From positions 4,662,001 through 4,726,000 of the forward strand of contig NZ_CP133319.1 of NCBI RefSeq assembly GCF_038811545.1: a stretch of DNA of 64,000 bases. The letters run 5' to 3'. Shown here piece by piece: positions 50,469 through 55,163 of this stretch (positions are counted from its first letter, which is position 1; every line of letters begins with the position of its first letter). The stretch comes from Rhodoligotrophos sp. CJ14. GTDB taxonomy: Bacteria > Pseudomonadota > Alphaproteobacteria > Rhizobiales > Im1. Below the pieces are notes generated by a model, which had not been told where the DNA came from, did not search any database, and saw only the letters and a list, made by a program, of their open reading frames with translations. The position numbers and the translations under genes were made by a program.

Positions 50469-51344
50469 TTACCGCCCGGCCCGTGCCAGCAGCCGCTGGG
50501 CATGCACCAGATGCGGCCTGTCCAACATCTCACCGTCCAGCCCGATCACGCCCGCATCACCGGCTCGCGCGAACGCATCCACGATTGCTTGTGCCCGGGC
50601 GAGCTCCTCAGGCGAAGGCGTGAACATCTCGTTGATGATGGGCACCTGTGCCGGGTGGATGGCGAGCTTCCCCGTAAAGCCATCGCGCAGCGCCTCATCG
50701 CATTCGAGCCGCAAGCCGGCCTCGTCGCGGAAATTGGGAAAGACCGAGTCGATGGGCTGAACCCCGGCGGCGACGGCCCCGAACAGGCAGAGCGAGCGCG
50801 CCAGGCGAAATGGCTCCGTGTGGCGGCCATCTGCCCCGCGATTATCGCGCGCGCCGATATCTGTGCGAAGATCCTCCGCCCCCCAGCTGAGCCCTTCCAG
50901 CCGGGGCCCGGCACTTTCATAGCTGCCAAGGCCGAAGAGCGCCTTTGCGCTTTCCGTGGCGACCACGGTGATGCGCGTTTCGCCGCGATGCTCCGCGGGC
51001 TCGATGGCGCCGATCATCGCCGAGAGCCTGCGCACTGAGGCAGCTCCCTCTGATTTCGGCAGCATGATGCCGTCGACCTTCAATCCTTCGAGCGCCTTGA
51101 GATCTCCGGCGGTGAGCCCCGTGTCGAGTGCATTGACCCGCACATAGATGCGGGGCAGGACGTCGGCTTTTCGGCCTGCGATATCCGCGATCACGCCGCG
51201 CACGATGCCACGGGCGGCCTCCTTTGCGCTTGCTGCGACCGAATCCTCAAGGTCGAGGATGATCGCATCGGCGCCGGAGCCTAAGCCCTTCTCGATTTTG
51301 CGTGGGCTGTCTGCGGGAACAAAGAGCATTGAGCGCATGAACAT
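50469..51344 (-). CDS. HpcH/HpaI aldolase/CitE-like CoA ester lyase
   Basis: The 291-residue protein fits the CitE/malyl-CoA lyase family (TIM barrel). RSMLFVPADSPRKIEKG opens it, DAIILDLEDSVAASAKEAAR holds acidic ligands, and VATESAKALFGL, GLSWGAEDLRTDIGA and GKLAIHPAQVPIINE match conserved blocks. It may cleave a malyl-, citramalyl- or methylmalyl-CoA. The start overlaps the MaoC stop by one base, so the two proteins very likely act in the same pathway; which one is inference. MRSMLF at 51338 is a possible start. Confidence 0.88.
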   Translation of the reverse strand: MFMRSMLFVPADSPRKIEKGLGSGADAIILDLEDSVAASAKEAARGIVRGVIADIAGRKADVLPRIYVRVNALDTGLTAGDLKALEGLKVDGIMLPKSEGAASVRRLSAMIGAIEPAEHRGETRITVVATESAKALFGLGSYESAGPRLEGLSWGAEDLRTDIGARDNRGADGRHTEPFRLARSLCLFGAVAAGVQPIDSVFPNFRDEAGLRLECDEALRDGFTGKLAIHPAQVPIINEMFTPSPEELARAQAIVDAFARAGDAGVIGLDGEMLDRPHLVHAQRLLARAGR

Positions 51345-51808
51345 TAGGCCTCTTTGCCGGGGCGCTTCCGCATGAACGCCTGGCGCCGGCAGGTGGCAAC
51401 CAGCACGTCATTCTGATTATAGGCCCGATGCTCGAATTCGACGATGCCGGCATCCGGCCGCGACTTGCTCTCGCGCTTTGCCTTCACCTCCGTTTCCACA
51501 TGCACCGTATCTCCGTGGAACAGCGGATGCGGGAACTTGACCTCGCTCATGCCGAGATTGGCGATAGTCGTGCCCAGCGTGGTATCGGGGACTGAGATGC
51601 CGATCATGAGGCCCAGCGTGAACAGGCTATTGACGAGCGGCTGTCCCCACTCGGTCTGCGTCTCGCAGAAATGCCGGTCGATATGCAGCGGCTGCGGATT
51701 GAGCGTCATGTTCGAGAACAGCATGTTGTCGCTCTCGGTGATGGTCCGCCGCAGCATGTGATTGAAGACTTGTCCAATCTCGAATTCCTCGAAATAGAGC
51801 CCGCGCAT
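51344..51808 (-). CDS. MaoC-like hotdog dehydratase
   Basis: The 154-residue protein is a MaoC-like (R)-specific hydratase. The catalytic Asn/Asp-His pair lies in NPQPLHIDRHFCETQTEWG. TLGLMIGISV and VKFPHPLFHGDTVHVETEV are other family blocks. Similar proteins act as mesaconyl-CoA hydratases, which would fit the coupled CitE-like lyase as the next step. The start at 51808 has AGAGGAGAGG close upstream. A region of 345 bases before it carries repeated GTGAGTCGTC boxes. Confidence 0.87.
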   Translation of the reverse strand: MRGLYFEEFEIGQVFNHMLRRTITESDNMLFSNMTLNPQPLHIDRHFCETQTEWGQPLVNSLFTLGLMIGISVPDTTLGTTIANLGMSEVKFPHPLFHGDTVHVETEVKAKRESKSRPDAGIVEFEHRAYNQNDVLVATCRRQAFMRKRPGKEA

Positions 51809-51944: not shown

Positions 51945-52063
51945 GCATTTGGTTGAATTTGCCTTGACTTCTCCACATTCGTATTTTGCTCGGACATTTC
52001 GATATTTGCGTAACTAACTGATTTTCATACAAATTTTCGTCCGCATCTATTGCAGGAAGCCTG

Positions 52064-52078
52064 TTAACTATTCATTAA
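52064..52078 (+). promoter_or_regulatory. CtrA-type box upstream of the receiver-like gene
   Basis: TTAA (52064-52067), seven bases, then TTAA (52075-52078), is a full match to the TTAA-N7-TTAA site of CtrA, the alphaproteobacterial cell-cycle regulator. It lies 76 bases before the ATG at 52154, a usual distance for an activating site. Binding is inference from the motif. Confidence 0.6.
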
Positions 52079-52153
52079 AGGGCGGCTCCCTACGACTCCA
52101 CCCAAGGCTCGATATGCCTGTGGGGGCATGTTGAATGCTCGGAGATCGTGTGA

Positions 52154-52537
52154 ATGACCCATTGCTTGATTATCGCGGACGCGGCGGGTGACCGACACGA
52201 ATTGGTTTCGATGCTGAACGCTCATGGATTCACGGTCGAGTTTGCGCCGAGTCCCGAACAAGCACTTCTGGCATGCCGGCGAAGCAGGCCGGATCTCATC
52301 ATGCTGCCCGACACCATGCCGAGCATGAGCAGTGTTGAATTTCTCCATCGTTTGAGGCGCACAGGGGCAGGAGGAGATCCGGCAGTGCTCATCTGTGCGA
52401 GCGATGCGAACGCCGCCTCGATCGGGCAGGCGATCTGGGAAGGGGCTGCCGAATGTCTGGTGCAGCCTTTCGATGCCGATATCCTGAACTTCAAGCTCCG
52501 CCAGGTCGGCTTTGCCAGCAGCAATGTCGCGGCCTAA
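52154..52537 (+). CDS. Receiver-like protein lacking phosphorylation residues
   Basis: The 127-residue protein has a complete CheY-like fold but key residues are missing. The acidic pair near the start is reduced (IIADA, one aspartate for two). The phosphorylated aspartate position reads Pro52-Asp53 (LIMLPDTMP, where LIMLDxxMP is usual). The conserved lysine is Gln104 (CLVQPF). It resembles the small response regulators that rhizobia place under CtrA. It probably works unphosphorylated by binding a partner. It lies behind a full CtrA box. GGAG precedes the ATG by about 10 bases. Confidence 0.82.
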   Translation: MTHCLIIADAAGDRHELVSMLNAHGFTVEFAPSPEQALLACRRSRPDLIMLPDTMPSMSSVEFLHRLRRTGAGGDPAVLICASDANAASIGQAIWEGAAECLVQPFDADILNFKLRQVGFASSNVAA

Positions 52538-52655: not shown

Positions 52656-53891
52656 ATGTTTCTGGATGGCGTACGCTCTGTATGGGCGCTGCTTTTCGGC
52701 GTCGCTCTGCTTTCGCTCGGCAATGGCCTGCAAGGAACCTTGCTTGGGGTGCGCGCAGCCCTGGAGCATTTCGGGCCGGGCGTGACGGGCCTGGTCATGT
52801 CGGCCTATTCCATTGGGCTGCTGGTCGGTTCGGGAATCACACCGGGTCTCATCTCCTATGTCGGCCATATCAGGGTTTTCGCGGCCTTGGCCTCGGTGGC
52901 CTCGACGGCGGTTCTCTTCTTTCCGATCCTGATCGACCCGATCTCGTGGTTCATCATCCGAGCTCTCGTCGGGTTCTGCATTTCCGGCCTGTTCATCGTC
53001 GCCGAAAGCTGGCTGAACTCCGTTTCGACCAACCGCGATCGTGGGCAGATCCTCTCGATCTACATGATCATCAGCTATTCCTGCATGGGGCTTGGCCAAT
53101 TCTTCCTGAATGTCGCAAGCCCCAGCGGCTTTGAGCTCTTCGTGGTGGTGTCGGCGATGGTGTCTGTGGCTTTGGTGCCGATGACCCTCGTGCGGGTCAC
53201 CGCGCCGGACGTCACCCATCCCCGCGGCGTGAGCATACGCGAGATCTATCGGCGATCACCCCTCGGCGTGGTCTGTGCCTTCACCAATGGGCTTGGCCAA
53301 TCGGCGTTCTTCACCATGGGCGCGGTCTATGGAACGCTCGCTGGTCTGAGCGTTGCGGAAGTCTCGATTCTCATGGCACTGCCGCCCCTTGGCGTCGTTC
53401 TCTCGCAATTTCCGATCGGATTGATCTCTGACAGGCATGACCGCCGCACGGTGCTGACCATTCTTGCCTTTTTGTCCGCCGCGCTTGCTTTTGCCTGCTA
53501 TCCCGCCACATTGATCAGCAGCGATCTGCTGATCGCGGTCTTCTGCCTGTTCGGCGCGCTCGCTCTACCGCTCTATTCGGTGGCGCTGTCTCATGCCAAT
53601 GACAATCTCGACGCCGATCAGATCCTCGGAGCCAGTGGCAAGCTGGTGCTGATTTATGGAATGGGCTCGGTCGCGGGACCGCTGATCGTTGGCCAAGTGA
53701 TGAGCTATATCGGCGCGCAGGGCTTCCCGATCTATCTCGGGATCGTCTATGCCGGCATCGGTGCTTATGCGATCTACCGCATGTCGCAGCGCCCGGCACC
53801 ACCGCCCAAGACCGAGTTCGTCCTGGTCAATCCGCGGGTCTCGCCAGTGGGCACCGCACCCGCTGTGGCGGCGGCGCGTGGCGAGGCATAA
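52656..53891 (+). CDS. MFS transporter, YcaD-like
   Basis: The 411-residue protein has about twelve membrane segments and the MFS loop motifs (GLISDRHDRRTVLTI between helices). VAESWLNSVSTNRDRGQILSI is the signature of the YcaD subgroup. The substrate is not known. The C-terminal 40 residues are proline- and alanine-rich. It follows the receiver-like gene by 118 bases on the same strand. Confidence 0.9.
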   Translation: MFLDGVRSVWALLFGVALLSLGNGLQGTLLGVRAALEHFGPGVTGLVMSAYSIGLLVGSGITPGLISYVGHIRVFAALASVASTAVLFFPILIDPISWFIIRALVGFCISGLFIVAESWLNSVSTNRDRGQILSIYMIISYSCMGLGQFFLNVASPSGFELFVVVSAMVSVALVPMTLVRVTAPDVTHPRGVSIREIYRRSPLGVVCAFTNGLGQSAFFTMGAVYGTLAGLSVAEVSILMALPPLGVVLSQFPIGLISDRHDRRTVLTILAFLSAALAFACYPATLISSDLLIAVFCLFGALALPLYSVALSHANDNLDADQILGASGKLVLIYGMGSVAGPLIVGQVMSYIGAQGFPIYLGIVYAGIGAYAIYRMSQRPAPPPKTEFVLVNPRVSPVGTAPAVAAARGEA

Positions 53892-53934: not shown

Positions 53935-54005
53935 ATTTGCTGGTGATCATCTCCCGAAGTGCAAAGCCAAATCATTCAATTGATTTTATTGCCTGGGAGA
54001 TGCGC

Positions 54006-55163
54006 ATGTCGAAGCAGAATGCCATCGGTCTGGATGTAAATTTTCTGACGCGCGTCGCTGAAGACCCTTCGCCCTACCAGCGCATGAAGCTCGCAACAGA
54101 ACTCGCCAGTTTCGTAGCGAACAAGGACAACCCCGAACCGGAACGTGCCGCCGTTCTGCCAGTGCTGCTGAAACTGGCGGAAGATGAAGCCATATCCGTT
54201 CGCCGCGCGATTGCCCAGGAGCTCGAGCTTGCGTCCTTCGTGCCCCCGGATGTCGCTTTCGCCATTGCCGCTGATGAAGATGATATCGCGCTGCCCTTTC
54301 TGGTCGCCTGTCCGGGGCTCACCGACGGCACGCTTGTCGCGATTGCCCGCATCGGCGATGACCGGCGGCTCTGCGCGATTGCCCGCCGGGCAAACCTGCC
54401 GCGCCACGCGCTGGCTGTTCTGATCAAGTTCGGCTCGCCCGCCGTTTGCAAGGAGCTTCTGGGCAATGCCGCAATTTCGATCCCCATCGAGGGCTATCGG
54501 ATCATCATGTCGCGCTTTGCCGCCGTCACCTCCGTGTGTGAGGCCATGCGGCGGCGCCGGGATCTGCCAGTCGAGATGCGGGTCAAGCTCGCGCAAATCA
54601 ATAATGACCGGGTGAAGGTGGTCCTTGCCAAGCAGGGCTGGGTCGAAAATGACCGCCTCGATGAACTTGTATCAGAGGCGGAGGATCACTCCTTCCTGCA
54701 GATTGCCCATGGTCTCAGCGGCGAGGACCTGGAGGCGATGGTCCGTTATCTCACCGTCAACCGCCTCGTTACCGGCTCGCTCATTTGTCGGGCCATCTGC
54801 CATGGCGAGATGAGCTTTGTCACCGAAGCGCTCGCCCAGCTTGCGGGCATGCCCAACCGTCACGTGGCCGACGTGATCGCCACCAGAAACGAGGTGGGCC
54901 TCAAGGTGGTGTGCGAGCATGCGGGACTGCCCCAGCCCTGCGTTGATCTCCTGCAGCTTGCGACGGAGAACGATTCCGGCCAGGTCAAGGACGTTGATCC
55001 AGCATCCTTCGCCCGTGAGATTGTGGATCTGCTCATCCAGAACAGCGCTGGGCGCAGTGAACTTGATATTTCTGGGCTTCTGTCTCTCATCGGAGCCTAC
55101 GGACCCGATGAGATCAAGGCGGTGACCGACGGCTTGCTCGCCTCCACCCCGCGCGCGGCCTGA
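54006..55163 (+). CDS. DUF2336 helical-repeat protein
   Basis: The 385-residue protein is built of short helical repeats with HEAT-like spacing. It contains recurring pieces such as AIAQELELASFVPPDVAFAIA and LARRANLPRHAL-type turns. This matches DUF2336, found almost only in alphaproteobacteria and of unknown function. The ATG at 54006 has GGGAGA 5 bases before it; an upstream ATG at 53937 is less likely. It lies in the same plus-strand run as the receiver-like gene and the carrier. Confidence 0.85.
   Translation: MSKQNAIGLDVNFLTRVAEDPSPYQRMKLATELASFVANKDNPEPERAAVLPVLLKLAEDEAISVRRAIAQELELASFVPPDVAFAIAADEDDIALPFLVACPGLTDGTLVAIARIGDDRRLCAIARRANLPRHALAVLIKFGSPAVCKELLGNAAISIPIEGYRIIMSRFAAVTSVCEAMRRRRDLPVEMRVKLAQINNDRVKVVLAKQGWVENDRLDELVSEAEDHSFLQIAHGLSGEDLEAMVRYLTVNRLVTGSLICRAICHGEMSFVTEALAQLAGMPNRHVADVIATRNEVGLKVVCEHAGLPQPCVDLLQLATENDSGQVKDVDPASFAREIVDLLIQNSAGRSELDISGLLSLIGAYGPDEIKAVTDGLLASTPRAA

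Follow-up and report, generated by a model that had tools for sequence, protein, structure and literature searches.

A conserved pseudo-receiver behind a CtrA-type box and a GANTC site in Rhodoligotrophos sp. CJ14 and its relatives

Analysis of a 64,000-nucleotide stretch of the Rhodoligotrophos sp. CJ14 genome (hereafter the window) revealed a gene for a CheY-like receiver that has lost most of its active site and lies downstream of a full CtrA-type box. The reading that we prefer, with a probability of about 0.45, is that its product is a dose-controlled, phosphorylation-independent binding protein made from a cell-cycle promoter and that, by analogy with a known inhibitor, it most likely damps the CckA-ChpT branch. 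The features concerned are as follows, in window positions.

51344–51808, minus strand: MaoC-like dehydratase gene, divergent and outside the proposed unit (Pfam MaoC_dehydratas, 7.3e-21; synteny in 14/20 relatives' loci)
52051–52059, unstranded: place of the TGTGGA element, unrecognisable in the window (TGCAGGAAG, 4/9 letters)
52064–52078, plus strand: full CtrA-type box TTAACTATTCATTAA, TTAA-N7-TTAA, the sole exact match in the window
52094–52098, unstranded: GANTC (GACTC), a CcrM-type methylation site, 15 nt past the end of the box
52154–52537, plus strand: pseudo-receiver gene, 127 amino acids (open reading frame, Pfam Response_reg, alignment A3, residue table and AlphaFold2 model)
52656–53891, plus strand: MFS transporter, the next gene (Pfam MFS_1, 4.7e-26; synteny in 13/20 relatives' loci)
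53937–55163, plus strand: DUF2336 (HEAT-like) protein (Pfam DUF2336, 1.6e-47; synteny in 16/20 relatives' loci)

The CheY-like fold that an earlier note on this DNA had proposed was borne out by Pfam, structure prediction and Foldseek. The window protein matched Response_reg (PF00072) with an E value of 2.8e-12 and 47.2 bits against a curated cut-off of 30.2, and its AlphaFold2 model, for which the 40-row alignment A3 was the input, was a complete (beta/alpha)5 receiver (mean pLDDT 84, pTM 0.81); score and fold together place it among the PF00072 receivers. The PDB matches listed by Foldseek for this model (n = 50) were all receivers or receiver-containing proteins. Alignment A3 placed A8 and D9 at the acidic pair (DD1 and DD2), P52 at the phospho-aspartate position, A82 at what we take, by counting against CheY, to be the conserved Thr/Ser, and Q104 at the conserved lysine. 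Four of the five active-site residues (A8, P52, A82 and Q104) were replaced and D9 alone was kept; D53 adjoins P52, and C101 occupies the aromatic K-3 position. The note had correctly listed the P52-D53 shift, the loss of one acidic residue and Gln104, and had missed A82 and C101. Passages of a 2025 perspective define pseudo-receivers by missing key phosphotransfer residues (PMC12632262), which describes a protein with one of the five left. The residues thus indicate a conserved pseudo-receiver, for which the usual phosphorylation should not be expected.

A match at E <= 1e-20 was present in 12 of 61 genomes, the window genome counted among the 61. The phospho-aspartate site was P in the two congeners (68 and 61% identity) and S in the sister genus (50%). 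An order-wide profile search gave a match at 1e-25 in 288 of 397 genomes, most of them canonical CheY by score, and sequences were read for part of these 288. The second search, with profile A2, re-examined 80 genomes; of the 109 order genomes with no first match, 54 were searched again with A2 and the other 55 fell outside the re-search. Reading of the fetched sequences placed the variant receiver in at least 25 of the 397 genomes (14 from the first rounds and 11 from the second), and beyond those 25 it is carried by the MAG records L091 and L092 and the partial L098. A scan of named genomes with the single window protein gave no match, and an alignment-based scan of named genomes gave nine loci, all in MAGs titled Hyphomicrobiales, Alphaproteobacteria or Proteobacteria.

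Comparison of 26 members, with the window included, L134 and the partial L098 left out and the duplicates L090 and L093–L097 counted once, revealed the aspartate to be missing in 20 (families f1, f22 and f14 and two MAGs) and kept in six. The loss of the aspartate, which the earlier note had asked to be sought in related species, was therefore common to relatives, both congeners and the sister genus among them; the lysine was still K in 8 of the 20 aspartate-less members, so the family does not share that loss. All five active-site residues were present only in L015 and L107. The other four aspartate-keepers were eroded, with three of five residues in L016, L103 and L105 and four of five in L106. 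Since several aspartate-keepers already lack part of the site, the alignment indicates that its erosion began before the aspartate was lost, with catalysis fading before the ctrA-linked che cluster went.

In the tree (40 rows) the canonical CheY group formed a clade with 100/100 support and the variant rows fell outside it, the branching among the latter being weakly supported. Two aspartate-less rows, L109 (f14) and the long-branched L135 (f22), stood away from the rest, and the aspartate may thus have been lost more than once. The window receiver shared 31–40% identity in A3 with the CheY group encoded between ctrA and chpT, and it is a paralogue of that CheY. Orthology with the che-cluster CheY was rejected, as the window receiver lies outside the 100/100 clade, at another locus and with one of the five residues. 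Orthology with DivK was likewise rejected, a separate DivK-like frame preceding a PleD-like one in the window genome (both named by eye).

The exact TTAA-N7-TTAA box that the earlier note had reported upstream was present, and it sits at nearly the same place in relatives. In the window its first base lies 90 bp 5′ of the receiver ATG and its last base 75 bp before it, and 100 dinucleotide shuffles of the window gave no exact TTAA-N7-TTAA. Genome-wide there were 18 exact boxes, and a control, the pattern read backwards, also occurred 18 times; the exact match alone does not show a CtrA site, therefore, and the case for the box rests on its conservation. An exact box lay 72–133 bp upstream of the start used in 24 of the 26 members (the exceptions being L150 and L106), while mononucleotide shuffling of 27 family upstream stretches produced a full box in 0.3% of trials. 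Canonical-type CheY loci had the box in 0 of 16 cases within 300 bp upstream and in 1 of 19 within 400 bp; this one (L143, genome G343) has a receiver outside the variant clade and an exact box 121 bp upstream. The motif definition of the CtrA regulon, a full box upstream that is conserved in relatives, describes the window gene, and CtrA is present in the genome.

Four of the 18 exact boxes (L081–L084, G000:C1:3095255-3106011) are crowded into 11 kb and have a palindrome-like form (TTAAGCC..., ...CCTTAA); the first of them is 49 nt from an OmpR-like regulator frame. They are probably sites of another regulator, and exact-box counts would for that reason overstate CtrA sites. Another exact box, TTAACCTCTCCTTAA (L085, G000:C1:3297273-3297287), lies between an FtsE-like gene and a divergent zinc-ribbon-like gene, both named by eye from their first residues.

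A GANTC followed the box by exactly 14 or 15 nt in 19 of the 26 members, the window included. It was absent at that spacing in a congener (L013), L131, L132, L133 and L109, as well as in L134, which is outside the 26; L150 and L106, with no exact box, were left unscored. Fifteen of the window genome's 17 other exact boxes were analysed (L187 and L188 were left out), and a GANTC stood 6–18 nt after the box in 2 of 30 orientations. Base composition predicts 222 GANTC sites for the window, which has 89. No other of the eight 5-mers of like form is as scarce, but others are also low (114–246), so the depletion gives no more than a hint of CcrM. All 27 genomes searched for GcrA had it. Additionally, TGTGGA, which we take to resemble part of a DnaA box, occurred 13–14 nt before the box in 14 of the 26 members, the window being without it. 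Passages of PMC4287350 place the full CtrA motif at -39 of an activated promoter and count GANTC as one of the elements of cell-cycle promoters. If the -39 rule is applied to the window box, receiver transcription would start near 52103, 39 bp from the first base of the box, and the -10 region would share bases with the GANTC.

Comparison of the ctrA regions showed that L050, L051, L052 and L055 have a canonical CheY together with cheA, cheW, cheB and cheR between chpT and ctrA. In the window genome, G001, G003 and G246, chpT adjoined ctrA directly, with no che gene detected in between. CheA (PF02895) was present in 13 of 27 genomes, namely the six aspartate-keepers, two canonical controls and five f22 genomes, and was not found in the other 14, all of which are aspartate-less; neither CheA nor FliG was found in any of the four f1 genomes, the window genome included. 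Four of the f22 CheA proteins (L170–L173) had 34–38% identity to the ctrA-linked CheA, and five others of the ctrA-linked kind had 52–70%; the sequences suggest that chemotaxis in these four f22 genomes was replaced later. The fifth f22 CheA (G185), which was outside the identity comparison, lies on a different contig from its ctrA and chpT. With the kind of CheA in G094 and G080 taken from coordinates, a ctrA-linked CheA was present in 0 of 18 aspartate-less genomes and in 6 of 6 aspartate-keepers (Fisher 7e-6, ignoring shared ancestry).

FliG (PF01706) was present in the six aspartate-keepers and the two controls. Seven of 14 f22 genomes also had it, with lower scores, and it was not found in G000–G003 or G063. 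A motor-binding, Cle-like role is unlikely in the window organism, given that no FliG was found in G000–G003. CtrA was detected in 26 of 27 genomes, the single miss being a genome 86% complete, and ChpT in 20 of 20. The window genome encodes CtrA, ChpT and GcrA in addition to the DivK-like frame. The note's picture of a pseudo-receiver with a shared loss and a conserved box stood. It had missed the GANTC, whose conservation, like the paralogy with CheY and the missing chemotaxis cluster, was not visible from the window alone.

Pseudo-receivers and single-domain receivers behind a CtrA box are known kinds. DivK is a single-domain receiver acting on the CckA pathway; the window receiver is also single-domain, and the window genome has its own DivK-like frame elsewhere. 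The CheY encoded between ctrA and chpT (for example L112 and L127) belongs to the same receiver family and is the closest paralogue group, but its typical members have an intact site, are part of a cheA-W-Y-B-R cluster and form the separate 100/100 clade. Bacterial pseudo-receivers and aspartate-less receivers resemble the window protein as PF00072 members that lack phosphotransfer residues and are regulated through synthesis or protein contact (PMC12632262, in passages; see also PMC4395418); the passages of PMC12632262 make no mention of FixT, Osp, CckA, DivK or "single-domain".

The nearest functional precedent is Osp of Rhodobacter (Cereibacter) sphaeroides, compared here by its description in passages of PMC9430884. 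Like the window protein, Osp is a single-domain receiver-like protein that has a CtrA-type site upstream and lacks acidic-pair and lysine residues; it is CtrA-activated, unphosphorylated and active as D51N, works without phosphorylation and inhibits CckA. Unlike the window protein, it keeps the aspartate (D51, against P52), its site is 54 bp upstream (against 90 bp for the first base of the window box) and it has a TetR and a hypothetical gene for neighbours, not MaoC, MFS and DUF2336 genes. Osp is reported only from Rhodobacterales, mostly from groups that lack DivK, whereas the window genome has a DivK-like gene. The CtrA-type site and the missing active-site residues are therefore shared. 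We do not file the window receiver as Osp, because the two differ in aspartate, gene context and taxonomic range and Osp was compared by description only. FixT, likened on the same descriptive basis (PMC9430884, in passages), is also receiver-like, lacks the acidic pair and inhibits a kinase while unphosphorylated, but its target is FixL and no CtrA-type promoter is mentioned for it. Among the literature titles and abstract openings covered on CtrA, pseudo-receivers, DUF2336 and GANTC, which mostly left out subscription journals, none described the window receiver family.

Because the promoter stacks a full CtrA-type box and a GANTC at a fixed distance, transcription of the receiver would be expected to track CtrA and CcrM/GcrA over the cell cycle. 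Its activity would be set by the amount of protein and not by phosphorylation. It would bind a histidine kinase or a phosphotransfer protein, perhaps via the conserved beta5-alpha5 side (PFDxDxLxFKLxQxG), and damp that partner. On this side P105, K114, L115 and G119 were found in all 20 aspartate-less members and D107 and Q117 in 19; P105, D107, K114 and G119 were equally conserved in 14 canonical CheY rows, where L115 and Q117 differ, and the conservation of those four may reflect a structural role instead. We favour a binding protein because a dead receiver and its promoter have been kept after the kinase cluster has gone. The likeliest target would be the CckA-ChpT branch, so that CtrA would come under negative feedback as with Osp; because Osp is the nearest precedent, we rank CckA or ChpT above a partner from the gene cluster (DUF2336 or MFS). 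CckA is a plausible partner by that analogy; nothing in the sequence names it, and the presence of a DivK-like gene counts against the reading, as Osp occurs mostly where DivK has been lost. As a fuller account, it seems rather unlikely that a Hyphomicrobiales lineage made from a chemotaxis CheY copy, with an origin separate from that of Osp, an inhibitor of CckA-ChpT-CtrA that is timed by CtrA/CcrM and needs no phosphorylation, and that this inhibitor outlasted ctrA-linked chemotaxis and flagella.

It is possible, if short of probable, that the receiver is instead a phosphorylation-independent adaptor for its DUF2336 or MFS neighbour, serving a cell-cycle-timed envelope or polar function and involving no kinase. 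By gene order, the conserved MFS and DUF2336 neighbours make a local partner at least as good a candidate. The synteny given above, in counts limited by some of the 20 relatives' loci stopping at a contig edge, extends over several families, with counterparts of both genes across f1, f22, f6, f37 and f38 and of DUF2336 in f14 too, and DUF2336 is kept at the locus even at only 25–34% identity. Additionally, an SLT-like gene, whose Pfam SLT score is below the cut-off, adjoins the receiver in each of the six aspartate-keepers as well as in f14 (L044, L045, L046, L047 and L166–L168); it was undetected in f1 or f22 loci. However, gene order by itself is no proof of interaction, and MFS was not found in five loci (L161, L164, L165, L166 and L044) nor DUF2336 in one (L043). 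The window DUF2336 protein scored 182 bits against NCBIfam SpbR, for which the cut-off is 400, and on this score it is related, yet not equivalent, to SpbR.

A shift of phosphorylation to the adjacent acid (D53 or E53), or that acid acting as a permanent mimic, is improbable. An acid (D/E) directly follows the lost aspartate in 9 of the 20 aspartate-less members, these being the four f1 members, the two MAGs and three species of f22; but the other 11 are without one, and A8, A82 and Q104 are also replacements in the window protein.

Slow decay of a relic whose kinase went with the chemotaxis cluster is more improbable still. The loss of the aspartate does track the missing ctrA-linked CheA, and the receiver is 61–68% identical between congeners where MFS is 72–76%, but DUF2336 diverges equally (60–72%). 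The frame is intact, and dN/dS (Nei-Gojobori) was 0.132 (G000–G002) and 0.135 (G002–G001) for the non-saturated congener pairs, G000–G001 being saturated; values against the sister genus were higher, at 0.284 and 0.352. The gene is retained over several families, with box and GANTC at a fixed spacing, and this conservation of gene and promoter largely refutes a relic. The earlier note had named decay of this copy as the outcome if close relatives kept the aspartate and lysine; the congeners and sister genus, as seen above, do not have the aspartate. A single decaying copy was ruled out by the orthologues, dN/dS and promoter conservation.

Least probable of all is that the box, which in the window lies between divergent genes, serves the MaoC-CitE genes (MaoC being divergent in 14 of 20 loci) and not the receiver, as it is 75 bp from the receiver ATG against 255 bp from the MaoC start and is kept exact in five MaoC-less loci (L042, L160, L161, L162 and L164). 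MaoC was not found near L042 (congener G001) or near the f22 loci L160, L161, L162, L164 and L165, and in those five f22 loci the upstream gene is co-directional with the receiver. Only L165 among the MaoC-less loci lacks the exact box (4/5 f22 loci and L042 keep it), and in the loci that keep it with no MaoC nearby the box would belong to the receiver.

The preferred reading of a dose-controlled binding protein bears on a wider question, as the mechanisms that switch bacterial pseudo-receivers are called a mystery in a passage of a 2025 perspective (PMC12632262). The window receiver probably works as a binding partner governed by its amount. Its family is a natural series, running from intact (5/5 residues) to dead (0/5) with the same promoter elements and a similar gene order, and a candidate trigger for the death of the receiver is that the che cluster between ctrA and chpT was lost. 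A graded series that matches the loss of the che cluster offers a useful test case for whether a receiver can turn into a regulator controlled by dose alone. Should the partner prove to be CckA or ChpT, the receiver would add an extra feedback arm to the alphaproteobacterial cell cycle, and, were it an inhibitor that arose independently of Osp, a dead receiver would for a second time, by convergence, have given rise to a feedback inhibitor of CtrA.
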